DNA of 64,000 nt from Chitinophagales bacterium (GTDB taxonomy: Bacteria; Bacteroidota; Bacteroidia; Chitinophagales; JADJOU01): assembly GCA_030832185.1 (NCBI GenBank), contig JAURJQ010000022.1, forward strand, positions 1 through 64,000, written 5' to 3'. The position numbers and the translations under genes were made by a program. Positions 4,339 to 51,376 of the stretch are shown piece by piece. Position 1 is the first letter of the stretch. Each line of letters begins with the position of its first letter. The notes under the pieces are model-generated. The model was not told the origin of the DNA and ran no database searches. It saw nothing but the letters and a program-made list of their open reading frames with translations.

Positions 4339-4944
4339 GTGAATTTAATACAGACGTTTGATATTTTTCAAAAGGCCATCGCTGATTATCATATTTTAAA
4401 TAGTATAGAAGCGCCTATACAAAATCCATTTCCTTCTAAGAGTATAGAGAGTCTTTTGTATGAAAAATGCTGGATAGATTCTATGCAATGGCACTGTGAG
4501 GATGAGGTAAGACATCCAAAGATAGATGCAGAGCGCATTCGTTTTTTTAAGAATAGAATCGATAGCCTAAATCAGTTGAGAACTAATTTAGTAGAGCAGT
4601 TAGATGATTATTTCTTAGCCTTATTTGAGCATATTCAATATCAATCTGACGCCAAACTCAACACGGAAAGCCCAGCCTGGGCTATTGATCGCCTTTCTAT
4701 TTTAGCATTAAAGATCTACCATATGCGCGAAGAGGTAGAGCGCACTGACCTCAGTCTGGAGCAGTTTCAAGCCTATCAGCAGAAGTTAGAATTACTTCTC
4801 ACTCAAAAATTGGATTTAATGGAAGCCATTCAACAATTCTTAAAGTCAATCGAGCAAGGCAAGACCCTATTTAAGGTATATCGTCAGGTGAAAATGTATA
4901 ATGATGCCGATTTAAATCCTGTTCTTCGCGCTATCAAGTCATGA
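4339..4944 (+). CDS. DUF4254 domain protein
   Basis: A 201-residue, largely helical, soluble protein with the spacing of conserved Glu, Trp and His residues recalled for DUF4254 (LLYEKCWIDSMQWHCEDEVRHP near residue 40; AIDRLSILALKIYHM near 115). The function is unknown. In Bacteroidota this family is regularly found next to glycosyltransferase family 9 genes. Here its stop overlaps the GT9 start by 4 bp (ATGA), so the two are very likely translationally coupled and work in the same surface-glycan pathway, which is inference. Translation starts with GTG at 4339, directly after a -7 element. Confidence 0.8.
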   Translation: MNLIQTFDIFQKAIADYHILNSIEAPIQNPFPSKSIESLLYEKCWIDSMQWHCEDEVRHPKIDAERIRFFKNRIDSLNQLRTNLVEQLDDYFLALFEHIQYQSDAKLNTESPAWAIDRLSILALKIYHMREEVERTDLSLEQFQAYQQKLELLLTQKLDLMEAIQQFLKSIEQGKTLFKVYRQVKMYNDADLNPVLRAIKS

Positions 4945-5948
4945 AGGACATTGTAGTTTTAAGATTATCCTCACTAGGCGATGTAGCCATAACGGTTCCA
5001 GTATTATTATCTTTTCATCAAGCGTTTCCCGACTGCACTATTCGTCTGATTACTAGGAGACGATTCGCTCCTATATTTTCAAATCTTGATTTTGTTACAA
5101 TTGAGGCCATAGATCAGGAATATAAGCCACTTTCATTCATTCAATGGATTCGTTTTGCTATACAACTTTCTAAATCTAGGCCAACTCTTGTTTTTGATCT
5201 GCACGATGTTTTGCGGACTAAGGTCATTCGTTGTTTTTGCAGACTATATGGAAGTAAAGTCTACGTTTTAGATAAAGGAAGAGATGAAAAGAAGGCCTTA
5301 ATAGAGCAAAAAGGAGGCCCGATTCTATACCTCAAGACTACTGCGCAGCGTTATGCAGATGTTTTTGGAAAAGCAGAGTTTCCCTTCCAACTTCAGTCTA
5401 TTTTTTTGCCAAGATTAAAAGAATCTAGCGAAAGATATAGTGTAGGTATAGCTCCATTTGCAAAGCATACAAGTAAAGAGTATGGAATAGAAAAGATGGC
5501 TCAAATTCTTCATTTATTAGCCAAGCATCAAGAAATTGATATCCAGATATATGGTCATGGATCCAGAGAACTTCACAAAGCACAAATTATGACAGCGGGT
5601 TTTTCTAATGTTACTATCCTTATCAATCAATTAAGTTTTGAACAAGAATTAGCAGCCATATCGAGTTTAGACCTTTTGTTAGCTATGGATAGTGGAAACG
5701 GACATTTAGCCGCCAATTATGGTATACCTGTATTAACCCTGTGGGGTACCACACACCCAAGTATTGGGTTTGGACCATATTTGCAGCCAGCAGAATACTC
5801 GTTTTTCCCTGATAGAGCCATCTATTCTGATTTACCTGTTTCTATTTTCGGGCCTTGCGACCGAACTGATTATGAGAGAGCGATAGACAGTATTAATCCA
5901 ATAACTGTGTATCAAAAAATACTAACAGTTCTTGAGAGACACAATTAG
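4941..5948 (+). CDS. Glycosyltransferase family 9 (heptosyltransferase-like)
   Basis: A 335-residue GT-B fold protein. It opens with the family 9 signature (VVLRLSSLGDVAITVPVL, in which the Asp in GDV is the usual catalytic base), has a GIAPFAKHTSKEYG nucleotide-sugar segment near residue 172, and ends with the conserved AMDSGNGHLAANYGIPVLTLWG motif near residue 250. The family transfers heptose or related sugars from ADP-sugar donors to lipooligosaccharide cores at the inner face of the cytoplasmic membrane. It overlaps the DUF4254 gene by 4 bp. The sugar donor and acceptor cannot be deduced. Confidence 0.9.
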   Translation: MKDIVVLRLSSLGDVAITVPVLLSFHQAFPDCTIRLITRRRFAPIFSNLDFVTIEAIDQEYKPLSFIQWIRFAIQLSKSRPTLVFDLHDVLRTKVIRCFCRLYGSKVYVLDKGRDEKKALIEQKGGPILYLKTTAQRYADVFGKAEFPFQLQSIFLPRLKESSERYSVGIAPFAKHTSKEYGIEKMAQILHLLAKHQEIDIQIYGHGSRELHKAQIMTAGFSNVTILINQLSFEQELAAISSLDLLLAMDSGNGHLAANYGIPVLTLWGTTHPSIGFGPYLQPAEYSFFPDRAIYSDLPVSIFGPCDRTDYERAIDSINPITVYQKILTVLERHN

Positions 5949-6028
5949 TTATTTAAAGTATTTTTAAAACTATACAATACAAATTAGTGTGTTTAATCTT
6001 CATTTTACACTTCTAGCATATTCGCACT

Positions 6029-6048
6029 ATTTTTGTAGAATATATTTG
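6029..6048 (+). promoter_or_regulatory. Two candidate -7 elements upstream of menD
   Basis: TATTTTTG (6029-6036) and TATATTTG (6041-6048) both fit TAnnTTTG. The second is 13 bp before the GTG start of menD. Confidence 0.45.
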
Positions 6049-6061
6049 TTTTATATTTTTC

Positions 6062-7708
6062 GTGTTAGTTTCCAATAAAAAATCCGCCCTTTATCTAAAA
6101 TCCTATTTCAAACAAATTGGCCTAACTCAAATTGTAATATGCCCAGGTAGTAGAAATTTGCCATTAATCATGAATTTCTCTAATGATAAGGATTTCAAGG
6201 TATATAGTATTATTGATGAGCGGGTGGCAGGATTTTTTGCTCTAGGTCTGACTAAAGCAAGTAGAAATCCTACCGTTGTGATTACCACATCAGGCTCAGC
6301 AGCACTTAATTTAGCGCCAGCTATGGTAGAGGCCTATTATCAGAGATTGCCACTGATAGCTATTACCGCAGATAGGCCAGCAGAGCGAATAGAAAAAGGA
6401 GAGAATCAAACCATAGTTCAGAAAGGATTATTTAAAAACTATGTCTCGTATGAAATAGAAATAGAGGAAAAAATTAGTTTAAATCTCTTTGAGAAAAAAA
6501 TACAGTCTCTTCATCAGTTTTTATTTCAAAACTCTACCTCAGGAAATGTCCATATTAATTTACCTTTTTCAGAACCTCTGGATTCCGTGGAGCATATACT
6601 AGGGGAGTTTAAATTTAATTTGACCCTAAAAAAAGCGCACCCTAAATCTGTTTTAAATTTTAATATTCCTTTTCAAAAAGGACAAAATGTCATAATTTAT
6701 TTATCCACCTTTCAAGAAGATATTCAACTAAATCGGCTATTGGATGAGGGAGTTTTGAATAAGAATTGGGTAGTTATCTCCGAACTACATTCTGGTTGGA
6801 AGCATAAAAACCTTGTTTCACAAATTGACTTAATTTTAAGTAATGAAAGAATAGTATATAAGCCTGATATACTGATAACTATAGGCGAAACTATGCTTTC
6901 GAAAAAATTTAGGAACTATATACGCAGCCTTGAGGGATTAAAACATATTGATGTCTCTAATTCTACTCGAAATTGGGATAGCTTATCTTGTGATTATTGC
7001 AATATTGTATGTAATGATAATATAGCGAAAATCTTAGATTTTGAGAATACTCGTAGTTTTCAGTCCAATTGGTTAGAGGCTGAAATCAAAGCTATTGACT
7101 ATCTTAAGACGAGATGTCAACCTTTGATTTATCAAGAGTTTAGTCTAGTCCACAATTTAATTAACTCAATAGATAATCAAGCCTTTATATTTTGGGGAAA
7201 TTCTTCTTTGATTCGTTACGCCAACTGGTCTAATTGGAAGGAAAGGGTTCAATTGAGCCATCTATCTAACCGAGGTGTATCTGGTATAGATGGTGTATTA
7301 GCTACAGCTATTGGCTATCAGTCATTTATTGGAGGAGGCGATTTCTATTGTTTTTTAGGGGACGTTAGTCTTTTATATGAAACAAGTAGCCTTTCTATAT
7401 TGAAATATGTTGATAATTTTAAGATTTTAGTGCTAAATAATCATGGAGGACGCATATTTGATCAGATACATAATGGGGAGACTTTAGGTGATACTCATGC
7501 GCTGGTGACACCTCATAGCGCTAGCTTTGAAGTATTAGCAGAGCTATATGATATTGATTATTTGAAAGTGAACGACTTAAATTCTTTTTTAACTCAACTT
7601 ACTTACTTAAAATCGCTAAAGGGAAAGATATTGTTTGAAATCAATATAACGGACGCCGACTGGGTGAAGTGGAAAGATTACTTCAACGAATTTGGCTCAA
7701 TTGATTAA
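6062..7708 (+). CDS. menD: 2-succinyl-5-enolpyruvyl-6-hydroxy-3-cyclohexene-1-carboxylate synthase
   Basis: A 548-residue ThDP-dependent enzyme of menaquinone synthesis, condensing isochorismate and 2-oxoglutarate. Visible landmarks: the N-terminal CPGSRNLPLIMNF segment (residues 21-34), IIDERVAGFFALG with the ThDP-activating Glu near residue 52, TSGSAALNLAPAMVEAYY, and a C-terminal ThDP-binding stretch GDFYCFLGDVSLLYETSSL near 430 followed by LNNHGGRIF. The chosen start is GTG at 6062, which gives the usual family N-terminus. The 3' end converges with a decayed yigZ on the other strand; the two overlap by about 26 bp. No other men gene is in the window. Confidence 0.95.
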   Translation: MLVSNKKSALYLKSYFKQIGLTQIVICPGSRNLPLIMNFSNDKDFKVYSIIDERVAGFFALGLTKASRNPTVVITTSGSAALNLAPAMVEAYYQRLPLIAITADRPAERIEKGENQTIVQKGLFKNYVSYEIEIEEKISLNLFEKKIQSLHQFLFQNSTSGNVHINLPFSEPLDSVEHILGEFKFNLTLKKAHPKSVLNFNIPFQKGQNVIIYLSTFQEDIQLNRLLDEGVLNKNWVVISELHSGWKHKNLVSQIDLILSNERIVYKPDILITIGETMLSKKFRNYIRSLEGLKHIDVSNSTRNWDSLSCDYCNIVCNDNIAKILDFENTRSFQSNWLEAEIKAIDYLKTRCQPLIYQEFSLVHNLINSIDNQAFIFWGNSSLIRYANWSNWKERVQLSHLSNRGVSGIDGVLATAIGYQSFIGGGDFYCFLGDVSLLYETSSLSILKYVDNFKILVLNNHGGRIFDQIHNGETLGDTHALVTPHSASFEVLAELYDIDYLKVNDLNSFLTQLTYLKSLKGKILFEINITDADWVKWKDYFNEFGSID

Positions 7709-8239
7709 CCCATTTTAATTTCGATTTGAAGACCGATAGTTGTATATTGTATTGACCATCAATGAAGCTTTAATATAGTGTGTTTATATTATTGCTTATT
7801 AACTGTTTAATAGCAGTATAGTGCATGGTAGCTTCCAGTATTAGCTCGCAAATAGTTTTATTTTCTCCTGTATGATTTTTGCTTGTTCCAGGCTGTGAAT
7901 GGCGGTTTTTCCTGTAGTCTTCTATTCAACCAGGCAGTCCAATAGCTCACTACAAATAAACTACAATTTTGGATCTGAAATGAATAGAGTTGATTTAGAA
8001 TGGGTTTTCCGGCTGATCCTGCAGGTTCTCCATCATCATTGGCTCGCACCTCTTCGCTATGAAAACTTATTCCATAGGTACAGCAGATTATGGCTAGCCT
8101 TGGGCTGATGATTCCTTAATTGAAGTAACGCTTCTTTAAATGCTGATATAGAAGTAGTAGGAAGGAGAAATTCGATCAACTTAGATTGAAAACTCTTGTA
8201 TTCTCCTTGTGATAGCTTTTCGATGGTTTTTATGACCAT
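7683..8239 (-). pseudogene. yigZ: Decayed YigZ/IMPACT-family gene (multiple frameshifts)
   Basis: Minus-strand fragments in different frames align in order to one YigZ protein. They are: an N-terminal piece from the ATG at 8239 (TIEKLSQGEYK, SISAFKEALLQLR, HPKAS-like QPKASH); then ISFHSEEVRANDDGEPAGSAG KPIL, the family hallmark, in another frame; then KTTGKTAIHSLEQAKIIQEK near 7860-7905; then TMHYTAIKQLIS; and a C-terminal SFIDGQYNIQLSVFKSKL ending at a TGA at 7683-7685. At least four frame changes and in-frame stops interrupt it. Total length (~185 codons) is close to an intact ~200-residue gene. The start lies 5 bp after the SDR stop, so it was the last gene of that operon. YigZ proteins are ribosome-associated IMPACT relatives of poorly defined role. 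Confidence 0.85.
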
Positions 8240-8244
8240 TTTAT

Positions 8245-8973
8245 CTAACCGTCAACTTGAATTCTAAATATGGATTCCGAATATTGAGACGGATTCTCTA
8301 AAACTTGAATTAATTTTTCTGCCACTTTGACGGGGCTATAGAGTTGATTTTTCTCATGTAATTCTTCAAACTTTGGCTTCATGGCAAAATTCTCCAAACT
8401 CGAATTTCGTATATGTTCTTGCATTTTGGTATCCACTACACCAGGTGCAATACTGAAACATCGAATTGGAAATTCCATTTGTTTCTGTTCTACTTCGATG
8501 CATTTACTGAGCATCTCTAAAGCTGCTTTTGAAGCACAATAATTCGCCCAAGAGGCATATGCACCCGTAGCTGCCCCACTTGAAATATTGATAATTGTTT
8601 TTTGTATGTTTAAATGCTGTGTTTTCTGAATAAATAGGGTGGCGAGAAGCATAGCCGAGGTATAATTTACCTGAATTATCGTCTCAAGAGCATTGACATC
8701 TATTTTGTCCAAGGTATTGATCTCACCAAGCATGCCTGCATTATTGATTAGACTAATAGATTGGTATTCATCTAAAATTGGAAATCTGAAGGCTAAAACA
8801 GCTTTAGAATCAGACAAATCTATAGCATGAAATTGAAAATTATCAGCTTTTAATGAGTTCGTTCTAGCGAGCCCAATGACGAAATTAGAAGAGTTTTTTG
8901 CCAGATTTCTACATAAAGCCAGTCCAATACCACTGCTAGAGCCGGTGACTAGGTATAGTTTTTTTTTATTCAT
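8245..8973 (-). CDS. SDR family NAD(P)-dependent oxidoreductase
   Basis: A 242-residue classical short-chain dehydrogenase. The cofactor motif TGSSSGIG sits near residue 11, NNAG near 76, the catalytic Ser in INISSGAATG near 130, and the catalytic YxxxK as YCASK near 146. The pattern with LARTN after beta-2 and a SIAPGVVDT loop resembles the sepiapterin reductase/benzil reductase branch, but the substrate is unknown. It is cytosolic and lies in a minus-strand run purS-rsmI-SDR-(yigZ relic), 61 bp downstream of rsmI. Confidence 0.9.
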   Translation of the reverse strand: MNKKKLYLVTGSSSGIGLALCRNLAKNSSNFVIGLARTNSLKADNFQFHAIDLSDSKAVLAFRFPILDEYQSISLINNAGMLGEINTLDKIDVNALETIIQVNYTSAMLLATLFIQKTQHLNIQKTIINISSGAATGAYASWANYCASKAALEMLSKCIEVEQKQMEFPIRCFSIAPGVVDTKMQEHIRNSSLENFAMKPKFEELHEKNQLYSPVKVAEKLIQVLENPSQYSESIFRIQVDG

Positions 8974-9034
8974 ATGTAACGTTTTAGAAAAGAGTAAAAA
9001 TGTAAAATATGGATAAACTTGGGGCCCTACTAGG

Positions 9035-9712
9035 TTATTTCGCTTTACTTTTGATGACTATCACGAATTCTCCAATTGGATCTTTTTTAGCAAAATATCC
9101 AAGTAATTCTGACGCACAACCTCGGATGGTCTCTTCAAATTTTTTGGTTATTTCTCTTGATATGGAGATTGGTCGATCTCCCCCTCCTAAATCAATAAAT
9201 TCTTGCAGAAACTTGACAATTCTGTAGGGAGATTCATATATGACAACAGTTTTTGGCTCAGCTAGAATAGATTTGATAAATGTCTGTCTGCCTTTTTTAT
9301 GTGGCGGAAACCCCAGGAATACAAATGATGAGAGGTCATAGCCAGAATTGACCAAGGCAGGAACAAATGCGGTGGCCCCAGGTAAACAATCTATTTGAAT
9401 TCCATGTTCTAAACATTTATCAATTAGTAGATTACCTGGATCAGATATCACGGGCGTGCCAGCATCAGATATAAGGGCAAAGGATTTTCCACCTTGAATT
9501 TGTTGAACTATGCGCTCTACTTCTTTAAACTCATTCATTTTATGCAGAGGCTGCAGTGGCTTGGATATATCATAATGCTGAAGTAGTTTAAAACTCTGTC
9601 TAGAGTCTTCGCACAGAATAGTATCTACAGACTTCAATACGTCTAGTGCTCGCAGCGTGATATCACCCAAATTTCCTATGGGAGTAGGAATTATAAAGAG
9701 CTTAGGCGTCAA
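9035..9712 (-). CDS. rsmI: 16S rRNA (cytidine(1402)-2'-O)-methyltransferase
   Basis: A 225-residue SAM-dependent tetrapyrrole-methylase fold protein. RsmI signatures are PTPIGNLGDITLRALDVL (residues 9-26), CEDSRQSFKLL near 34 (family EDTRxT), the ALISDAGTPVISDPG glycine-rich loop near 79, and the PGATA and GFPPHKKGRQ segments. It methylates the ribose of C1402 in 16S rRNA. Its ATG overlaps the 3' end of purS by 11 bp, indicating co-transcription and likely translational coupling. The protein ends soon after EFVIVI, as in short RsmI variants without the C-terminal HTH extension. Confidence 0.95.
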   Translation of the reverse strand: MTPKLFIIPTPIGNLGDITLRALDVLKSVDTILCEDSRQSFKLLQHYDISKPLQPLHKMNEFKEVERIVQQIQGGKSFALISDAGTPVISDPGNLLIDKCLEHGIQIDCLPGATAFVPALVNSGYDLSSFVFLGFPPHKKGRQTFIKSILAEPKTVVIYESPYRIVKFLQEFIDLGGGDRPISISREITKKFEETIRGCASELLGYFAKKDPIGEFVIVIKSKAK

Positions 9713-9959
9713 GAGGAGATAGCGTATAAGTGTACTGCTCCATGATTTTATTGACTAGTAATTTCTCACAAGCTTCTCTCGTTTGATTTTCAGCGTCCTC
9801 TTTGGAGGCAGCCTCTAAGTGGAGCTCTATATTTTTACCAATACGCACATTTTCTATAGCATGGAGTTGCATTTTGTGCAAACCATTATTAACAGCTTTA
9901 CCTTGTGGATCCAGTAACTCTTTATGCGGCATGACCTTAATTTCTGCTAAGTATTTCAT
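9702..9959 (-). CDS. purS: Phosphoribosylformylglycinamidine synthase subunit PurS
   Basis: An 85-residue small subunit of the three-part PurSLQ enzyme of de novo purine synthesis. Typical features are YLAEIKVMPHKELLDPQGKA at the N-terminus, then a VRIGKNIELHLEA strand and a conserved acidic helix. I chose the ATG at 9959; an upstream TTG at 9980 would lie inside the -7 element. PurL and PurQ are not in the window. PurS as a separate polypeptide is unusual for Gammaproteobacteria but common in Gram-positives and part of the Bacteroidota. Confidence 0.88.
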   Translation of the reverse strand: MKYLAEIKVMPHKELLDPQGKAVNNGLHKMQLHAIENVRIGKNIELHLEAASKEDAENQTREACEKLLVNKIMEQYTYTLSPLDA

Positions 9960-9977
9960 ATTTTCATGATTAATCAG

Positions 9978-9985
9978 CAAATTTA
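9978..9985 (-). promoter_or_regulatory. -7 element TAAATTTG for purS-rsmI
   Basis: On the minus strand, TAAATTTG matches TAnnTTTG and lies 18 bp before the purS ATG at 9959. It supports that start and shares the short divergent region with surE. Confidence 0.5.
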
Positions 9986-10069
9986 CAGGAAATATTTTAT
10001 TTGCAATTTTTTCCTTTTTTTAATTTATATATCAACTTAGTTCTCGCATTATGCTCTATTTTTACATCT

Positions 10070-10867
10070 ATGATACGAAAGATAAAATCAGATCCAGCCA
10101 CACCCTTAATATTGATTACAAATGATGATAGTATATACTCTAAAGGAATACGAAGCTTGGTAGAAGCTGTCAAAGATTTAGGTCAAATAGTAGTAGTAGC
10201 TCCTAGCCTACCACAAAGTGGTATGGGACACGCTGTTACGTTAAAAGACCCTATTCGATTGACCCCGGTTAAGAGATTCGATGGAGTACTAGCTAGTTAT
10301 GCATGCAGTGGCACACCCGTAGACTCCGTGAAAATAGCACGCGATGTCATTCTAGATCGTAAACCAGACCTTTGCCTATCTGGTATCAATCATGGCTCCA
10401 ATTCATCTATCAATATTATTTATTCTGGCACCATGAGTGCTGCCTTAGAAGCGGCAATCGAAGAAATACCTTCCATTGGCTTTTCCTTATGTGATCATGA
10501 TTTGGATGCTGATTTTGAAACGGCTAAAATTGTGGCGAGAAAGTTAACGATTCAAATGTTGGCTAATCCGATGACCAAACCTAGTCTGCTCAATGTAAAT
10601 ATACCACAAGTAAGTCCATCTGAACTCAAAGGTTATAGAATATGCAGACAAGCGATAGCTAAATGGGAGGAAGAATTTGAAGAGCGAAATGATCCACGCG
10701 GAGGCCATTATTATTGGCTGACAGGTAAATTTGTTAACTATGATCAAGGCCATGATACGGACGAATGGGCACTTGAGAATGACTATGTTTCTGTGGTACC
10801 TATTCAATTTGACTTAACTAATTATCATAACATAAACTATATTCATAATAACTGGGAACTCAATTAA
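10070..10867 (+). CDS. surE: 5'/3'-nucleotidase SurE
   Basis: A 265-residue metal-dependent nucleoside monophosphate phosphatase. The ATG at 10070 gives the normal N-terminus, with the metal-binding ITNDDS motif at residues 16-21. SIYSKGIRSL follows, then VVAPSLPQSGMGHAVTL, the CSGTPVDSVKIA loop, and SGINHGSNSSINIIYSGTMSAALEA, which supplies the conserved Asn ligand. An in-frame extension upstream to a TTG at 10001 encodes a hydrophobic non-conserved segment and is rejected. The gene diverges from purS and is followed by a small membrane-protein gene. Confidence 0.93.
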   Translation: MIRKIKSDPATPLILITNDDSIYSKGIRSLVEAVKDLGQIVVVAPSLPQSGMGHAVTLKDPIRLTPVKRFDGVLASYACSGTPVDSVKIARDVILDRKPDLCLSGINHGSNSSINIIYSGTMSAALEAAIEEIPSIGFSLCDHDLDADFETAKIVARKLTIQMLANPMTKPSLLNVNIPQVSPSELKGYRICRQAIAKWEEEFEERNDPRGGHYYWLTGKFVNYDQGHDTDEWALENDYVSVVPIQFDLTNYHNINYIHNNWELN

Positions 10868-10925
10868 GCTCGATATAATCATTTCCTTCAACCTTTTAAT
10901 TACTTCACTTATCAAATCATACTAA

Positions 10926-11222
10926 ATGGAATATAAACGAATCATTGGCTACGAAAAAATGGATAATATGGTGACAGGATTTATCCTAGGTTTTTTAACC
11001 ATAGGACTAACATATTTAGCTCAAATGACCTATTATAATGTGGATGTTTTGGGTGATTTAGGTGCGCCTATCAAAGTGAATATTCTAAAATTGAGTCTTC
11101 TCGGTGCTTTGTTTCTCTTCCTGCTACTTAACTATTTTGACAAAGTATTCGCTATGAAAGGAGTTTTGATGTCTGTAATTATCGTAGCTACTTATGTCGT
11201 TTTTAAATTATTTTGGAATTGA
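10926..11222 (+). CDS. Small three-helix membrane protein, unknown function
   Basis: A 98-residue hydrophobic protein with three predicted membrane segments (about residues 17-35, 52-66 and 77-95) and a charged N-terminus (EYKRIIGYEKMD). I do not recognise a family. Its stop overlaps the TTG-initiated start of the DUF2797 gene by a few bases, so it is probably co-expressed with DUF2797 and priA. Its placement after surE suggests one transcription unit running from surE to priA, but that is inference. Confidence 0.7.
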   Translation: MEYKRIIGYEKMDNMVTGFILGFLTIGLTYLAQMTYYNVDVLGDLGAPIKVNILKLSLLGALFLFLLLNYFDKVFAMKGVLMSVIIVATYVVFKLFWN

Positions 11223-12037
11223 GTACTTCTACTTCTTTTTTTCTAGATAAGTTGCCAGCAAGACTAGAGCATGATGCCGTGCAGTATAATTTATCCTTGG
11301 CACAAAGGGAGCCTATTGCTTTGAATGAACTTGTAGGCAAGGAATTTAAACTAGAATATACAGGAAGATTACAGTGTATAGACTGTAAAAAAAATGTCAA
11401 AAAATTTTATGCCCCAGGTCTATGCTATGTTTGTATGATGTCTTCTGCATTGAATTCTGAATGCATTATCAATCCGGAACTCTGCGAAGCTCATTTGGGT
11501 AAAGGGAGAGTACCTGAGTGGGAGGAGAAATATCATAATCAACCTCATATTGTATATTTAGCAAATTCAGGAGGGCTTAAAGTAGGTGTCACTCGTGTAG
11601 ATCAGATACCGACTCGTTGGATAGATCAGGGTGCGGATGAGGCGATTATTTTAGCATTGACCCCATATCGACAATTAGCAGGTCAAATTGAAGTCGTGTT
11701 AAAAAATCAATTGAGCGATAAAACCAATTGGCGGGCTATGCTTAAAAATGTAAAAGATCTATCTATAGATTTAAAGGCTGAAAAGAATCATTATGCATCT
11801 TGGTTGGTTGATCAGGATCAAGAATTTGAGCATTATATAGCCGAAGATGATACTGTACACGTTTTGAGTTATCCTACCACAATTTTAAGCCAACCTATAC
11901 AATCAGTTAAACTAGAAAAGCAAGCCAAGTTAGAAGGCATTCTCACTGGCATCAAAGGGCAATATTTGATTATAAATGAGAATACTGTTATCAATATCCG
12001 CAGTCATGCGGGGTATGAAGTGGTTGTCAATTTATGA
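11213..12037 (+). CDS. DUF2797 domain protein with Cys-rich motifs
   Basis: A 274-residue protein with the DUF2797 pattern: GRLQCIDCKK and CYVCMMSSALNSECIINPELCEAH, giving several Cys pairs that could bind zinc, then the HIVYLANSGGLKVGVTRVDQIPTRWIDQGA core, which resembles a GIY-YIG-type fold segment. The biochemical role is not established. Only TTG codons (11213 or 11219) precede the conserved region, overlapping the end of the upstream membrane gene, so a TTG start with translational coupling is inferred. Confidence 0.82.
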   Translation: MELSTSTSFFLDKLPARLEHDAVQYNLSLAQREPIALNELVGKEFKLEYTGRLQCIDCKKNVKKFYAPGLCYVCMMSSALNSECIINPELCEAHLGKGRVPEWEEKYHNQPHIVYLANSGGLKVGVTRVDQIPTRWIDQGADEAIILALTPYRQLAGQIEVVLKNQLSDKTNWRAMLKNVKDLSIDLKAEKNHYASWLVDQDQEFEHYIAEDDTVHVLSYPTTILSQPIQSVKLEKQAKLEGILTGIKGQYLIINENTVINIRSHAGYEVVVNL

Positions 12038-12075
12038 TCTTAACTGCCATTGAAATAGATTCTTAATAGAAAATA

Positions 12076-14535
12076 ATGACCCTTTTTACTGATATTATTT
12101 TACCTTTTAAACTAGCTTCAAGCTTCTGTTATCAGGTCCCCAGCCAGTTGGCGGATAATGTAGCAGTGGGTAAGCGCGTTTTGGTACCATTCGGTAAGAG
12201 TAAATATTATGCAGGTATAATTTCTAAACTGCATACGGATAGGCCCAACTTCGCTCAGATAAAGGCGATAGAAGAAGTTCTCGATGATGAGCCCATCCTA
12301 TCAGCTATTCAGCTTGACTTTTGGACTTGGTTAGCGAACTATTATATGTGCACGATTGGGGAAGTTATGGAAACTGCTTTGCCCAATTATTTCAAGCTAT
12401 CGAGTGAGCGATTTTTCAAAATAGCAGACAATTATATCGAAGAGCCGCATTGGCCAATATCTATAGAGGCTAGCGGGGAAGATGAAATGCTGCTAGATGC
12501 TATCCGCAGTTCTGGGCAGCTTTCCTTCAAGGAAATTAAGGATAGTTTTGGAAATAAGAGAGGACTAGCTAGTCTGAATAAATTGATAGACATCGGTATC
12601 GTAGAACCAATAGATATAGTGAAGAATAAATACAAGGCGAAATATGAAAAGTTTATTCGTCTGCATTATAGCTATACAGATACATTTAAAATCAATGAGG
12701 CCTTTAATGCATTGCAATCTAAAAGTCCTCAGCAATATAAGCTATTACTCAGTTTTTTCTCTCTAACCAAGGGACATGATGGTGTGCTTAAATCAGACCT
12801 ATTGCATAAAGCGGACACTAGTGCTAGTGTGCTTAAATCCATAGTAGATAAGGGGATATTGGAAGAATATTCCCAGCAAGTTGATCGATTTATGATTCAG
12901 AAAAATAGCACACCAGAAAAGGCTATATTGAGTCCAGCCCAATTGATAGCACATCAGAGTATTCTAGAACTTTTTTCTACTAAAACTACGGTTTTACTTA
13001 GAGGAATAACCGGTAGCGGCAAAACGGAAGTTTATATAAAATTGATCCAAGATGCACTAGACAAGCAGAAATCTTGTCTTCTTATTTTACCTGAAATAGC
13101 GCTAACACAGCAGATAGTAAGCCGCCTCAATCGCTACTTTGGTTCAGATTTCGTCGTTTATCACTCTCTCATTAGTCAGAATAAGCGCTACGAGATATGG
13201 AAGAAAGTAAAAAATGGAGAAATAAAATTAATTATAGGTACACGCTCTGCTATGTTTCTTCCTTTTCAGAAGTTGGACTTGATCATAATAGATGAAGAAC
13301 ACGATAACTCTTTAAAACAAACCGATAGCAATCCAAAATTTCATTTACGGGATAGTCTGATTCATTATTCAAAGTCGCTTCAAACTAAGATATTATTAGG
13401 CTCTGCTACACCTTCAGTAGAGACCTATTTCAATGTAAGAAATGAAAAGTATGGCTATGTAGAATTATTGGAGCGCTATGGAGATGCTCTAATCCCCGAA
13501 ATAGAACTCATAAATCTGAGAGACCACGACGTCCATCAGGGCATGAAAAGTTTCTATTCTGAAAAACTGCTTGAGGAAACTCAGAAGGCAGTGAGTAAAG
13601 GTCAACAAGTTATTTTATTTCAGAATAGACGAGGATATTCGCCATTTATCCAATGCAATACTTGTGGCTTTGTCCAAAAATGCGATCATTGCGATGTGAG
13701 ATTAACGTATCATTCTTATCAGAAACTCTTGGTTTGTCACTATTGCAATAAAAAGTATAGTTTAAAGCCTACCTGTGTCGATTGCGGAAGTTCGGAGCTT
13801 AGGACGAAAGGGCTGGGTACACAAAAAGTAGAAGAAGAAATACAATTGTTTCTCCCAACCATAAGAATTGGTCGTTTGGACCTTGATTCTGCCGGTAGTA
13901 TAGCCAAGATAGATCATATTCTAAATCAATTCAAAAAAGGAGACTATGACGTATTGATTGGTACTCAAATGGTATCGAAGGGATTAGATTTTGAAAATTT
14001 GACTTTGGTAGGGGTAGTACAGGCGGATATTTTCTTCTCATTTATAGAATATAGAACAGATGAACGGGCTTTTCAAACCCTCCATCAGGTGTCAGGAAGG
14101 GTAGGACGCGGTTTAAAGCCAGGGAAGGTCTTAATTCAAACTAGTGATCCAGACAATAAAGTCATCAATTATGTGCTCAATAATGACTGGAAGGGATTTG
14201 TAGAGCAGGAGCTAAAAATTAGAGAACAATTTATCTACCCGCCCTATTGCAAGCTTCTCAAAATCTCAATTAAGCACATCAAAGAAGACCTAGTTAAAGT
14301 CTATGCCGATAAATTGGTAGAGCGGATTTCTAACTCTATTAAGGCGATCATACTTGGACCTACGGTGCCTCCTATTTCTAGAATACGAAATCAGTATATA
14401 CGAGATATCTTGATTAAACTACCAAAAAATAAGGATCTACAAACGAACAAATCGCGAATAAAATCTATTATTGATGAGGAATTAATGACCTTGACGAATA
14501 AGAATTTTACAATTGAAATACTAGTTGATGTATAG
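12076..14535 (+). CDS. priA: Primosomal protein N' (replication restart helicase)
   Basis: An 819-residue superfamily 2 helicase that restarts stalled replication forks. There is an N-terminal 3'-DNA-binding domain (residues 1-100); Walker A GITGSGKTEVY near 310; DEEHD (motif II) near 406; and LGSATPS (motif III). The zinc-binding insert has paired Cys motifs (CNTCGFVQKCDHCD, CHYCNKKY, CVDCGS, about residues 530-575). Motif V/VI follow as GTQMVSKGLDFENL and QVSGRVGRG. Length and domain order are normal for PriA. The start at 12076 is 38 bp after DUF2797. Confidence 0.97.
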   Translation: MTLFTDIILPFKLASSFCYQVPSQLADNVAVGKRVLVPFGKSKYYAGIISKLHTDRPNFAQIKAIEEVLDDEPILSAIQLDFWTWLANYYMCTIGEVMETALPNYFKLSSERFFKIADNYIEEPHWPISIEASGEDEMLLDAIRSSGQLSFKEIKDSFGNKRGLASLNKLIDIGIVEPIDIVKNKYKAKYEKFIRLHYSYTDTFKINEAFNALQSKSPQQYKLLLSFFSLTKGHDGVLKSDLLHKADTSASVLKSIVDKGILEEYSQQVDRFMIQKNSTPEKAILSPAQLIAHQSILELFSTKTTVLLRGITGSGKTEVYIKLIQDALDKQKSCLLILPEIALTQQIVSRLNRYFGSDFVVYHSLISQNKRYEIWKKVKNGEIKLIIGTRSAMFLPFQKLDLIIIDEEHDNSLKQTDSNPKFHLRDSLIHYSKSLQTKILLGSATPSVETYFNVRNEKYGYVELLERYGDALIPEIELINLRDHDVHQGMKSFYSEKLLEETQKAVSKGQQVILFQNRRGYSPFIQCNTCGFVQKCDHCDVRLTYHSYQKLLVCHYCNKKYSLKPTCVDCGSSELRTKGLGTQKVEEEIQLFLPTIRIGRLDLDSAGSIAKIDHILNQFKKGDYDVLIGTQMVSKGLDFENLTLVGVVQADIFFSFIEYRTDERAFQTLHQVSGRVGRGLKPGKVLIQTSDPDNKVINYVLNNDWKGFVEQELKIREQFIYPPYCKLLKISIKHIKEDLVKVYADKLVERISNSIKAIILGPTVPPISRIRNQYIRDILIKLPKNKDLQTNKSRIKSIIDEELMTLTNKNFTIEILVDV

Positions 14536-14996: not shown

Positions 14997-16475
14997 ATGT
15001 CCTACGATCTATTAAAGAAAAAAACGTATGAAATAAAGCAATTGCAGTCTATTAGCGCCTTGCTGAGTTGGGATATGGAAGTGATGATGCCTCATGCATC
15101 TGATAGAGGATTTAGAGCAGATCAGTCCTCATTGATCAATGGTATGGCTCATGAAAAAATGACTGATAGTGAATTGGAAAAGATGGTGAATGATTTGTTA
15201 GCAGGAAATACTCTATCAGAGCAGGATAGGAGAGAGGTAACTGTATTGAAAAAAGATATTTCTAAGTCAAAGAAGATATCAAAGGAATTCGTAGAAAAGG
15301 AAAGTAAACTGACTAGCGAAGCCTATTCGATATGGGAAAGGGCGAAATCGTCTTCTGATTTCAAATTATTCGAGCCTTCGTTGAGTTCTATCGTGGATTT
15401 ACTTCGTGAGAAATGTGATTTGCTAGGTTATGAGGCTCATCCTTATAATGCTTTGTTGAATGAATTTGAAGAAGGAATGACTGTAGCTAAACTAGATCCT
15501 TTATTTGAAGATGTCAAGGTTCGTCTAGGATTTTTAATTGCCAAAGTACTAGCTAAGCAAGGCCCTAGGACTGCCCACTTGAGGCAATCTTTTGATATTC
15601 CCAATCAGGTAAAGCTAGTGGAAAAAATTATGGATTTACTAGAAGTCAATAAAGATCTTTTTCGCATGGATGTCTCTTCGCATCCTTTTTGCACCAATTT
15701 TCATAGCACCGACATACGCATGACGACGCGCTACAATGAAAATGATTTAATGTCTTCAATATGGTCTGCTATACATGAAAGTGGTCATGGTAGATATGAA
15801 ATGGGTCTTTCACAAGGTTTGGCGGGCATGCCTTCTTCTAATTCCGTGTCTCTAGGTATTCATGAGAGTCAGTCAAGATTCTGGGAGAATAACATAGGTC
15901 GCAGTCAAGCATTTATTGAACTTCTTTTCCCGATTATACAAGAATTTTTTCCCGCACAAATGCAAGCTCTCAGCCCCTGGGATTTATTCTCTGAGATCAA
16001 TTATATAGAGCCGAGTCTCATAAGAACAGAAGCCGATGAGCTAACCTATCACTATCACATTATGATACGCTATGAGTTGGAAAAAAAATTGATTAACAAT
16101 GAATTGAAAGTATCTGAGGTAAGTGAATATTGGAGTGCTATGTATAAACAATATCTAAAATTAGATGTACCGAATGATGCTATGGGTTGTCTGCAAGATG
16201 TTCACTGGAGTTTTGGCGGTATGGGTTATTTTCCAACCTATTCGCTCGGCTCCTTTTATGCAGCGCAATGGTATCTAGAAATGAATAAAACCCAAGGTTT
16301 AAAAGATCTTATAAGACAAAAAAAGTATAGCCAAATTAATGATTGGCATTCGGTTCATATTCATCAATATGGTGCTCTATATAATTCAGATGAACTCTGC
16401 GTCATGGCTACAGGGAAGTCTTTAGATTTTTATTGTTTCGAGCATTATATATCTGAAAAGTATCAATTAGGATAA
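14997..16475 (+). CDS. Carboxypeptidase M32
   Basis: A 492-residue metallocarboxypeptidase. The zinc-binding HExxH occurs as HESGH near residue 259 and the third ligand in the downstream GIHESQSRFWEN motif near 290. Other M32 hallmarks are FHSTDIRMTTRYNENDL before the HESGH and EINYIEPSLIRTEADELTYHYHIMIRYELE near 340. The length is normal for the family. It is a cytosolic enzyme removing C-terminal residues from peptides. It starts 45 bp after the DivIC-like gene. Confidence 0.95.
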   Translation: MSYDLLKKKTYEIKQLQSISALLSWDMEVMMPHASDRGFRADQSSLINGMAHEKMTDSELEKMVNDLLAGNTLSEQDRREVTVLKKDISKSKKISKEFVEKESKLTSEAYSIWERAKSSSDFKLFEPSLSSIVDLLREKCDLLGYEAHPYNALLNEFEEGMTVAKLDPLFEDVKVRLGFLIAKVLAKQGPRTAHLRQSFDIPNQVKLVEKIMDLLEVNKDLFRMDVSSHPFCTNFHSTDIRMTTRYNENDLMSSIWSAIHESGHGRYEMGLSQGLAGMPSSNSVSLGIHESQSRFWENNIGRSQAFIELLFPIIQEFFPAQMQALSPWDLFSEINYIEPSLIRTEADELTYHYHIMIRYELEKKLINNELKVSEVSEYWSAMYKQYLKLDVPNDAMGCLQDVHWSFGGMGYFPTYSLGSFYAAQWYLEMNKTQGLKDLIRQKKYSQINDWHSVHIHQYGALYNSDELCVMATGKSLDFYCFEHYISEKYQLG

Positions 16476-46076: not shown

Positions 46077-47057
46077 ATGGAAATTCATTTGGAAGAAATC
46101 AATTCGGAAAATTTCGAAAAGAAAGCCCTAGAGGTCTTTGAATTTCAGCGAAAGGCCAATACCATCTATGCCGCCTATTGTCAATCTATTCAGAAAAATG
46201 AAGTAGATCAATTGACGGACATTCCATTTCTTCCTATTAGTTTTTTCAAGACGCATAAGGTAAGTTGTCTCCTAGATTCTGACTTAAGCTATTTTGAAAG
46301 TAGTGGAACCTCGGGTCAAGTCAATGCTAAACATTATTACAAGGATTTAAGTCTATATCATCAGAGCATTGAATTAGGATTTCGCCATTTTTTTGGAGAT
46401 AAAAAATACACTATTGTAGGTTTATTGCCACATTATCTCGAAAGGCAGCATTCATCATTAGTAGCTATGGTTCGACATTGGATGCAAATGAATGAGCAAG
46501 AAGAATATTTTTTTCTACATGACTTCGAAAAATTGGCTGACTGTTTAGACGAAATTTCCAATCAAGAGATACTCCTTATTGGCATTAGTTTCGCATTAAT
46601 AGATTTCGCTGAATATAAAAATCAAAACTTAAAACTTAAAACTCCCGATATCTATCGGGACTTAAAACTGACTATTATAGAAACTGGTGGTATGAAAGGG
46701 TCTAGACCCGAGATAGCCAAGGAAGAACTAGTGTATATTCTCCAAAAATCCTTTCCTCAGTCTAAAATTATCTCAGAATATGGTATGTGTGAATTATTCT
46801 CTCAAGCTTATTCTGACACTGACTTATGGTTTAGCACTCCGCCTTGGATGAAAGTCCTTGTTGGGGATATCAATGACCCTAGACTAGTAGCAGAGCAGGG
46901 TAGAGGCCCCGCTAAAATCATAGACCTAGCCAATATAAATTCTTGTGCCTTTATCGAGACGCAGGATCTCATAGACTTAAAGCCCAGTGGACAGTTTCAG
47001 ATACTAGGCAGAATGAATCAAGCTGATCTTAGAGGTTGTAGCTTGATGTATAGTTAG
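46077..47057 (+). CDS. LuxE-like acyl-protein synthetase / acyltransferase (with in-frame repeat insert)
   Basis: A 326-residue protein of the LuxE/acyl-protein synthetase branch of adenylating enzymes. IPFLPISFFKTHKV, FESSGTSGQVNAKHYY (nucleotide-binding Ser/Thr/Gly loop near residue 80), LLPHYLERQHSSLVAMV, IIETGGMKGSRPEIAKEEL and SEYGMCELFSQAY (acidic motif) are all typical. Between LIDFAEYK and LTIIETGG lies an extra segment (about residues 182-198, NQNLKLKTPDIYRDLK), encoded by heptamer repeats and a perfect palindrome. It looks like a repeat tolerated in frame. It probably activates an acyl group for a surface or carrier acceptor; substrate unknown. Confidence 0.85.
   Translation: MEIHLEEINSENFEKKALEVFEFQRKANTIYAAYCQSIQKNEVDQLTDIPFLPISFFKTHKVSCLLDSDLSYFESSGTSGQVNAKHYYKDLSLYHQSIELGFRHFFGDKKYTIVGLLPHYLERQHSSLVAMVRHWMQMNEQEEYFFLHDFEKLADCLDEISNQEILLIGISFALIDFAEYKNQNLKLKTPDIYRDLKLTIIETGGMKGSRPEIAKEELVYILQKSFPQSKIISEYGMCELFSQAYSDTDLWFSTPPWMKVLVGDINDPRLVAEQGRGPAKIIDLANINSCAFIETQDLIDLKPSGQFQILGRMNQADLRGCSLMYS
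46625..46668 (+). repeat. Heptamer repeats flanking palindrome inside the LuxE-like gene
   Basis: Units of AAAACTT repeat on both sides of the perfect inverted repeat TCCCGATA-TC-TATCGGGA (46643-46660). The upstream block matches 45429-45448 with one mismatch. It is translated in frame. Confidence 0.7.
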
Positions 47058-47249: not shown

Positions 47250-50200
47250 ATGAAAAAGAGATTATGGAAATTAACCGTTTTTTTTATACTGCTGGGTGGT
47301 ATATTAGATACGAAAGCTAGCGGTCTTTCAGGTGCAGCTATTACTTACCAGCTTTTAGACTCCAATCTAGGTCTATATAAAGTAAGACTTGAATACTACA
47401 TGATATGCGCCAGTGGTTTCTCTTTCATTAACCAAACAATAAAAATAATAGGCTCTCCTTTAAATAGCCAAATGACTGCTTATTTTCATAAAAAGGAGGA
47501 AATCTCTCCTATTGGTTTACCTCCAGATGTTCTAGTACCTGTAAATACATGGTGCAACTCAAGCACAGGTCCGAAAAGTCCTTTTGGCTACTATAAAAAT
47601 ATTTATGAGGGCAATGTGGTCATTGGGAAAAATATAGGTGTAGTCATATTTGGATGGACGGATTGCTGCAGAGATATTGCAATTACTAATAATAAAAGTA
47701 GTTCAAATGGATTGTTTGTTCAGGCTTTAGTGAATACGAATTACCCAAATAGCTCCCCAGTGCACTCTAAGCCTGAAATGATTCCGCTATACAAGAATAA
47801 GCAGAATATCTATAATATGCGGGCTACAGATGTGCATGATCCGCAATTTATTCTAGTAAATGGCAAATTAGTCGTGAGAGATTCCCTGTCTTATGAATTG
47901 CTGCCGAGTTTTACAGCTATGGCTGGCAGTGCCACAAGTATTGCAAATCTCCAAAATCCTCCCGTAATCTATGAAACTGGATTAAGTGCTAGCCAATGTT
48001 TCTATGTATCTAATGCAATGTCTCTTAATCAATCTGCGGCTCAAGTTACTATTAATCCTAATCGAGATCAATTAGGGCATATGGCATACGTCGTGCGTGA
48101 ATATAGAGCTATCCCCAATGCTGCGGGAACCTCCTACACGAGAGTATTAGTGGGTTATACCATGCGTGACGTCGTATTGCGAGCCGAAGGCACGGCCGAC
48201 CCTGTTAAATTTGATGGGATAATTAAAGATTTATCTCTCGTAGATACTTTGCCAAATAATTTTACGGCTGCAACCTGCTACCTAGATAATAAAATAGTAT
48301 TTAAAGCTATAGGTGCTCCATATCGTTCCTTACGGATAAAGGATTTATCTGTAATTGATCCAACGTTTATAAGTAATTATAAAATGAGCTATAGTCTCAA
48401 ATCAGGAAATAATGTAGATACTGCTTATGTAACGCTGACATATCGTAAGAGGAAAGAAGCTCCTAGTTTTGAATTTCTCTACGATGCGTATTATGTCAAC
48501 ACGAATGGAATTTTAGTGAATAATATCATGCCTATTAAGGTGATTCCTGGGGTTGGATTTGTGCAGTTAGCAGAAGACACCGTCTATTATTGTTCTAGTG
48601 GTAGTATAAAGCTTGATGCCAGTATAGGGGTGGGAGCTAAATGGTCTCCGCTCACTTCAGTCGTCAGTATCAGTGCTGATTCCGCTATTATACAAGTATC
48701 TCCTACTATTGGAAGATGGTATTTGGCTAGTAATCTGACTACAGCGATTGGCTGTAAACTGCACGATAGTGTTTACATTAAGGTTTTGGCTTGTGATACT
48801 GTTTATGGTGTCATGTGCATAGATAAAAATAAGAACTGCCTATGCGATCCATGGGAATATAAAATAAAAAATACAATTTTTGATGTCAAGGGTGTTTCAA
48901 ATGTTTATTCAGCTACAGTCTCTACAGACTCTACTGGAGCCTATCGCTTTGTGCCACCTTCTCTTAATAGTTATATCATCGAACGCGATGGAATGCTTTT
49001 CAACTGCGGCATTAATAATAAGAAATCTCGAGCATTCAGCATGACCTTATTTGGAAATATGAAAGTGGATATACCTGCCATAGACAGTGTAGTGATTTCA
49101 GATTTTAATACTGGTATGGTGGATACCAATTATTGTTACAAAGATTCTGTGAGCTATGTGATGAATTTCTTTAAAAACTATGGACTCATGCGTGCTATCA
49201 TGCATTATGGTGATGGTAGAGTAGATACTACAAAGAATTTTGATATTGAATCGGGATTTACATCTCTTTCATTTTCTAGACAATACAATAGTGGTGGACA
49301 GTTCAAAGCGAAAATAGTATTCTTAGACTTTTTCTATTCTCCAAAAGACAGTCTTCTATTTAAACCTGTATTTATTTCCAATTGTATCTTTGGAAAAGTC
49401 TATATCGATGGAAACAAAGACTGTGTCTACAATCCTTCGGATAAATTACACGCTTATCACCGTCTAGATTTGAAAAATAATGTATCAAATGTCACCGATA
49501 TTCAATTCGCCTTATTTGATGGCAGTTACAAAGCCTTTCTTAAAAAGAATGAGGCGTATACGCTAAACAATACTATTCCAATTATGTGTAATGCAAATAG
49601 CCCCGTGAAGTCGATTCCTGCCTATACAGTTGATACCAGTTTGAAAATGGACATTCCTCTAGACCCATTGCCTGTTAACTACATAATCGTAGTCCTGAAA
49701 TCGGGCAGTATAGCTAATAATAAAAAATTAGATTTAAATTTGAGCTATTCAGGCAATTATTTTACAGACACAGCTATAAAAAAATACGAAGTTCGATTGC
49801 CCGCAAATACCAAAGTGGATGCTTTATCACCAAATGCTAGCTATACCCAATCCGGATCCGTGCTTCAAATCATACAAAACACAGGTACTCAGACCACACT
49901 TACTCTTAAGTTTGACTCCTTACTAGGCGGTGATAACTTATGTTTTTTTACTAGGCTACATAGAGTCTTACCTGAAACCGATACGAGCGATAATAGTCAG
50001 TATTTCTGCCTAAAAGAAGGTGAATCGGATTTAGCCTTAAATAAAAAGCAAGTGAGCATTGTTTCGCAGATAAATCAGCAAGATTTTCTTAATAAAAATG
50101 ATGATTTAATATATCAGATAAATTTTATCAATAACAGAACTAGCACTGCCAATCAACTTTATATTTCGGATATTATAGATTCTAAGTTAGATATGTCATC

Positions 50201-50747
50201 TATGAAACTGATTAAGCAAAGTCATTCTGGACAGATATTATTCAGACCTGGAAATGAACTCGTTTTTGCATATAAGGATATCAATTTGCCCGATAGTGCT
50301 ACAAACAATAGTGATAGCAGAGGATATGTGGTTTTTAGTTTCAAACCAAAATCGAGTTTAGCATTAAACGATAACATAGAAAATCAAGCGGTCATTGTAT
50401 TTGATTTTAGTCAAAACATAAGAACGAATACTACCCTGAGCCGCTATATAACTAAGCCCACTATTGCTATCAAAGAAGGACCAAATCAGAATTATTCCTT
50501 TTTCCCAAATCCAAGCAGTGACTTTATTCATCTAAACATGGAGTCAAATGCTGCCGCTAATCATAGGCAATTTTACCTCATAAATCTATTAGGTCAGCGA
50601 ATACCATTAGAATTTAGTATATCAGCTCCCTTATCCAAGGAAATCATACTAAATTTAAAATCTGTACCTGAAGGATTTTATTTCCTAAATACCTTTAGTC
50701 AGAGAGGCGAACATATTTATCTCGGTAAGATGGAGGTGATGAGATAG
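47250..50747 (+). CDS. Large T9SS-secreted surface protein
   Basis: A 1165-residue protein with a signal peptide (RLWKLTVFFILLGGILDTKAS). The long beta-rich ectodomain contains a Cys-bearing N-terminal module (GAAITYQLL, YYMICASGF), two calcium-type SdrD B-like segments (GVMCIDKNKNCLCDPWEYK near 525; GKVYIDGNKDCVYNPSDK near 712), and a DUF11-like region near 920-1050 (NDDLIYQINFINNRTSTANQLYISD). The C-terminal Por-type sorting domain (YSFFPNPSSDFIHLNM ... VPEGFYFLNTF) marks type IX export. Probably an adhesin or matrix protein. Directly after its TAG stop a second sorting domain continues in the same frame. Confidence 0.9.
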   Translation: MKKRLWKLTVFFILLGGILDTKASGLSGAAITYQLLDSNLGLYKVRLEYYMICASGFSFINQTIKIIGSPLNSQMTAYFHKKEEISPIGLPPDVLVPVNTWCNSSTGPKSPFGYYKNIYEGNVVIGKNIGVVIFGWTDCCRDIAITNNKSSSNGLFVQALVNTNYPNSSPVHSKPEMIPLYKNKQNIYNMRATDVHDPQFILVNGKLVVRDSLSYELLPSFTAMAGSATSIANLQNPPVIYETGLSASQCFYVSNAMSLNQSAAQVTINPNRDQLGHMAYVVREYRAIPNAAGTSYTRVLVGYTMRDVVLRAEGTADPVKFDGIIKDLSLVDTLPNNFTAATCYLDNKIVFKAIGAPYRSLRIKDLSVIDPTFISNYKMSYSLKSGNNVDTAYVTLTYRKRKEAPSFEFLYDAYYVNTNGILVNNIMPIKVIPGVGFVQLAEDTVYYCSSGSIKLDASIGVGAKWSPLTSVVSISADSAIIQVSPTIGRWYLASNLTTAIGCKLHDSVYIKVLACDTVYGVMCIDKNKNCLCDPWEYKIKNTIFDVKGVSNVYSATVSTDSTGAYRFVPPSLNSYIIERDGMLFNCGINNKKSRAFSMTLFGNMKVDIPAIDSVVISDFNTGMVDTNYCYKDSVSYVMNFFKNYGLMRAIMHYGDGRVDTTKNFDIESGFTSLSFSRQYNSGGQFKAKIVFLDFFYSPKDSLLFKPVFISNCIFGKVYIDGNKDCVYNPSDKLHAYHRLDLKNNVSNVTDIQFALFDGSYKAFLKKNEAYTLNNTIPIMCNANSPVKSIPAYTVDTSLKMDIPLDPLPVNYIIVVLKSGSIANNKKLDLNLSYSGNYFTDTAIKKYEVRLPANTKVDALSPNASYTQSGSVLQIIQNTGTQTTLTLKFDSLLGGDNLCFFTRLHRVLPETDTSDNSQYFCLKEGESDLALNKKQVSIVSQINQQDFLNKNDDLIYQINFINNRTSTANQLYISDIIDSKLDMSSMKLIKQSHSGQILFRPGNELVFAYKDINLPDSATNNSDSRGYVVFSFKPKSSLALNDNIENQAVIVFDFSQNIRTNTTLSRYITKPTIAIKEGPNQNYSFFPNPSSDFIHLNMESNAAANHRQFYLINLLGQRIPLEFSISAPLSKEIILNLKSVPEGFYFLNTFSQRGEHIYLGKMEVMR

Positions 50748-50966
50748 TTTAACATAAGCCCTAATCCAGCATCGGATAAAATTTCAATTGAAGTACCTAT
50801 AAATTTGAAAGCCTATTATGTGCGAATTCTGACTGTTGAAGGAAGATATATAACTGAATACACCAATCCTAAGGAAATCTCTATAGCAATACTACCTAGA
50901 GGCCTTTATTTTATAGAACTAAGGTCAGAAGGAGTGAATAAAGTTGAAAAATTAGAATTGAAATAG
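50748..50966 (+). pseudogene. Orphan Por-type sorting domain in frame after the TAG stop
   Basis: The frame continues without interruption for 72 codons after the TAG of the surface-protein gene: FNISPNPASDKISIEV, then YYVRILTVEGRYI, ILPRGLYFIELRS and VEKLELK, ending with TAG at 50964-50966. This is a full type A T9SS sorting domain of normal length lacking a start codon and passenger. It is most simply the remnant of a deleted gene, an earlier longer version of the upstream gene, or a swappable tail. Confidence 0.8.
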
Positions 50967-51142: not shown

Positions 51143-51376
51143 ATGGAAAAACACGATTTACGTCACGAATTCCCCGAGTTTGAGCAGAAAATTCATGATT
51201 TGAAGGTAGTTGATAATCATTTCAGAAGATTAATTGATGACTATCATTAAGTCAATAATGAAATACATCGTATAGAAACAGGAGCTGCATCCGCAGCTGA
51301 TGAGATCTTAAATCAGTTGAGATTAAAAAGAGTACATCTTAAAGATGAACTCTATGAGATTTTGAAACAAGCATAG
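51143..51376 (+). pseudogene. YdcH family (DUF465) gene with internal UAA stop
   Basis: The frame from ATG 51143 encodes MEKHDLRHEFPEFEQKIHDL and continues to RRLIDDYH, then TAA at codon 36 (51248-51250), then VNNEIHRIETGAASAADEIL and LKDELYEILKQA, ending TAG at 51374-51376. Total 77 codons, normal for DUF465/YdcH, a two-helix hairpin protein of unknown function. The family usually has Glu at the stop position (HEVN-EIHRIE), so a single GAA-to-TAA change explains it. No frameshift is present. Confidence 0.85.

Follow-up and report, generated by a model that had tools for sequence, protein, structure and literature searches.

Results

The gene of a T9SS surface protein is followed in frame by a second sorting tail

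The window, the 64,000-nucleotide stretch of DNA analyzed here, encodes a T9SS surface protein that we call paralog A (Table 1). Paralog A ends in ...MEVMR-TAG (ORF 47250-50747), and its frame goes on past the TAG as FNISPNPASDKISIEV...VEKLELK-TAG, up to position 50966. The initial annotation described this extension as a second complete sorting domain of 72 codons, and both the reading of the ORFs and Pfam confirm that description. The second tail matches the Por_Secre_tail profile (PF18962) with an E-value of 7.8e-10 and 39.4 bits, against a cut-off of 27, and it is also matched by the TIGR04183 profile. The first tail passes the same cut-off (29.5 bits, E 9.3e-7), and both tails cover nearly the full length of the Pfam profile. 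The interval originally given for the second domain, 50700-50966, also covers the final 48 bases of ORF 47250-50747, and the second tail proper occupies 50748-50966.

By profile, both tails resemble the T9SS type A sorting domain (PF18962, TIGR04183). By inspection, the first is C-terminal on an exported passenger with a predicted signal peptide, whereas the second has neither a passenger protein nor a start codon; no in-frame ATG was found for it, in agreement with the initial annotation. At the protein level, the two tails share only 25% identity. Back-to-back tails are exceptional, with one pair only among the 50 sorting-tail matches in the window's genome (whole genome, E up to 0.01).

We compared the window with four genomes of the same genus, G001, G002, G003, and G004. 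G001 and G003 carry orthologs of paralog A with 70-71% identity. The best match to the first tail across the genus is the A tail of G001 (E 3e-12), with the next at 5e-6. The possibility that the first tail is a foreign one was therefore ruled out, since in E-value the A tail of G001 leads the next match by six orders of magnitude. The A tail (window 50502-50744) evolves far faster than the body of A, with 33% versus about 70% identity to G001.

Table 1. Features at the A/B locus of the window
Feature	Position	Strand	Remarks
LuxE-like gene	46077..47057	+	Synteny anchor upstream of A and B
Paralog A	47250..50747	+	Complete gene of a 1165-aa surface protein; N-terminal signal-like segment, DUF7619, own T9SS sorting tail, TAG end
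First sorting tail	50502..50744	+	Native to A, fast evolving; closest match within the genus: A tail of G001
TAG stop of A	50745..50747	+	Proposed deletion junction flush with the stop; 1 bp (G) shared
Orphan second sorting tail	50748..50966	+	72 codons and a TAG; PF18962; very probably what is left (the 3' end) of paralog B after a deletion; 89% aa / 90% nt identity to B of G002
DUF465 gene	51143..51376	+	Synteny anchor, located after B in both G001 and G002; its frame holds a TAA at a codon that is sense in relatives

The second tail matches the 3' end of an intact gene in related genomes

G002 is a sister species, with 85-97% identity in other parts of the window. At the A/B site G002 lacks A and encodes a single intact gene of 1448 aa, which we call paralog B. 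This protein terminates in RFNISPNPASDKILIEVPINLKAYSVRILTVEGRYVTEYANPKEISVISLPRGLYFIELRSEGVTKVEKLELK, and over its final 72 residues it shares 88.9% identity with the orphan tail. Within the genus, the B tails of G003 and G001 come next, at 43-45% identity. In both G001 and G003, B (about 1440 aa) adjoins A; the gene order is LuxE-like gene, A, B, DUF465 in G001 and B, A in G003. The LuxE-like gene precedes the site and the DUF465 gene follows it in all three genomes, and the DUF465 and dapB genes downstream of B in G002 are the same as those behind the orphan tail. G004 has neither A nor B, although this genome is only 62% complete. No further copy of B was found in the window's genome, and the body of B is missing genome-wide.

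Within the LuxE-like gene, positions 46500-46800 are 62-73% identical to G002, compared with 82-97% around this segment. The DUF465 gene has a TAA at 51248-51250 where G002 has GAA, and the frame is open in five other genomes; this TAA represents either a nonsense mutation or an error in the consensus sequence.

DNA homology with G002 starts abruptly at 50747, the last base of the TAG of A, and continues unbroken through the tail, DUF465, and dapB (92.9% over 2.1 kb). Upstream of this point the window has A, and G002 has the body of B. Microhomology at the junction amounts to 1 bp flush (G), and no word of 8 or more bases is common to the end of A and the portion of B that precedes the tail. 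We also considered recombinant import of the downstream segment, as the LuxE-like gene is only 84% identical to G002, and rejected it: other parts of the window show 85-97% identity, and the low LuxE value is local.

Tails have been exchanged between A and B in G003

The body of A in G003 is that of A elsewhere, but its tail resembles that of B, with 87% DNA identity to the tail of the neighboring B over 210 bp; A has thus undergone tail exchange in this genome. The exchanged stretch starts at the PNP motif and ends just past the stop. The exchanged tails are the 3' ends of adjacent ORFs at 4527-7991 and 8172-12485 (G003:C23, L068). The initial annotation offered tail swapping by recombination as one explanation of the two tails and proposed looking for swaps among paralogs. 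Such a swap has occurred between A and B of G003; at the window's own locus, both tails keep their own ancestry, and swapping does not account for the pair.

Other short tail-bearing frames

A separately started small gene was rejected as an account of the second tail, which has no in-frame ATG. The other short tail-bearing frames that we examined have their own signal-peptide start, are part of a longer frame, or run off a contig end. One such frame in G000 (C26, L082 2731-3054) encodes 107 aa, mostly signal peptide and sorting tail, behind its own start codon. A tail-bearing gene on C3 of the same genome (L090 1222-2511) has its sorting domain broken by an in-frame TGA. Outside the tail-bearing genes, a Cas9-like frame in G001 (L067 14456-18001) contains a single in-frame TAG at 16154-16156 (...NGRDI*RYKLWEE...).

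Discussion

How did a complete sorting tail come to lie in frame behind the stop codon of another gene? We propose that a tandem paralog, B, was deleted here except for its 3' end, which persists as the second tail and so is an ordinary gene fossil; to this reading we assign a probability of roughly 92%. As in a deletion pseudogene, close relatives (G002, G001, and G003) have an intact homolog, B, at the corresponding site, homology breaks off sharply at 50747, and the rest of the gene is lost. Of the options raised by the initial annotation, the pseudogene remnant was the right one.

The homology, the synteny, and the junction can be read directly from the DNA, and the order of events that we infer is as follows. 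The ancestral order would have been LuxE-like gene, A, B, DUF465, as still seen in G001. A deletion of about 4 kb in the window's lineage, after its split from G002, would have removed the spacer between the two genes together with all of B that precedes its sorting tail. One breakpoint would lie flush with the TAG of A, the second at the residue where the tail domain of B begins. That the orphan tail then fell in frame with A would be a one-in-three chance. In the simplest history, the loss of A in G002 would be a separate event. Having no start codon, the orphan tail should not be translated and is presumed silent. A itself is untouched, and we expect it to be produced, exported, and sorted by means of its own tail.

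Some observations count against a fossil. The orphan tail is open over its 72 codons, its dN/dS versus G002 is 0.25, and the junction looks tidy, abutting the stop on one side and the start of the domain on the other. The openness and the dN/dS are weak counter-evidence. When 10 random substitutions were simulated in a neutral tail, leaving insertions and deletions aside, the frame remained open in 55% of cases, and openness is therefore no argument for use. The dN/dS value is weak because half of the comparison is G002's own constrained branch. Differences between the orphan tail and G002 fall 7/5/9 on the three codon positions, compared with 2/5/26 for dapB and 8/7/23 for the next gene. This pattern suggests relaxed constraint on the orphan tail, although the count is small and these tails evolve fast anyway.

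Could the second tail instead be in use? Rare readthrough of the TAG would yield a minority product with the second sorting tail, and the tail is indeed in frame and still open. Programmed readthrough, however, goes with an extension that is conserved in orthologs and with structured RNA 3' of the stop. A of G001 and of G003 has no in-frame extension past its stop, and the predicted folding of the 121 nt of RNA from the stop onward does not exceed that of shuffled versions (z 0.80). Moreover, the tail that A carries before its stop is already complete, and B accounts fully for the second one. In relatives B is a full separate gene starting elsewhere, a finding that the initial annotation had named as refuting its interpretation and that here counts against readthrough. 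We therefore regard readthrough as extremely unlikely. An assembly artefact, in which the contig wrongly joins A-bearing and B-bearing strains, deserves consideration because the genome is a 31-contig draft. Yet the window is syntenic with G002 on both sides of the junction, and nothing there would mislead an assembler: with no shared word of 8 or more bases and 1 bp flush, repeat-mediated misassembly is unlikely, and we judge a false join to be highly improbable.

The tail exchange in G003 invites another reading, in which an exchange is under way at the window's locus, with A gaining the tail of B and the second tail kept as a gene-conversion donor. The 87% DNA identity between the A and B tails of G003 shows that the tails of these two genes do exchange. 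On the other hand, the window's tails have diverged to the extent noted above and each has its own ancestry, and the codon-position differences versus G002 reveal no selection for keeping a donor tail. We consider an exchange under way very unlikely, and there is only a very slim chance, smaller again, that the retained B tail serves as an exchange donor for A, as a step toward the exchanged state of G003. Were it to do so, tandem T9SS genes would behave as small cassettes in which tails recombine separately from passengers.

Our preferred explanation, loss of most of B by deletion, has familiar counterparts. The orphan tail is like other truncated pseudogenes left by deletion in tandem paralogs in that it consists of the 3' end only, lacks a start, and has an intact copy in a sister species. 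It is unlike them in that the fragment lies in frame and flush behind its neighbor's stop. Our literature search on sorting-tail exchange and tandem sorting domains returned thin results, with only loosely related work (PMC5266723). T9SS surface proteins of Porphyromonas gingivalis undergo domain rearrangement and allelic exchange (PMC5266723), which, like the events described here, involves recombination among related T9SS-exported proteins, and the tail exchange in G003 is of the same general kind. In P. gingivalis, however, it is mainly adhesin domains and alleles between strains that are affected, whereas here we find a deletion fossil and, in G003, exchange of the sorting tail itself.

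The locus matters little in itself, as a clean deletion fossil. It does offer a caution, in that a lost neighbor can explain in-frame sequence behind a stop codon. Beyond this, it is a clear example of how two adjacent T9SS surface genes can turn over: B would have been lost in one species and A in its sister, and tails were exchanged in a third.
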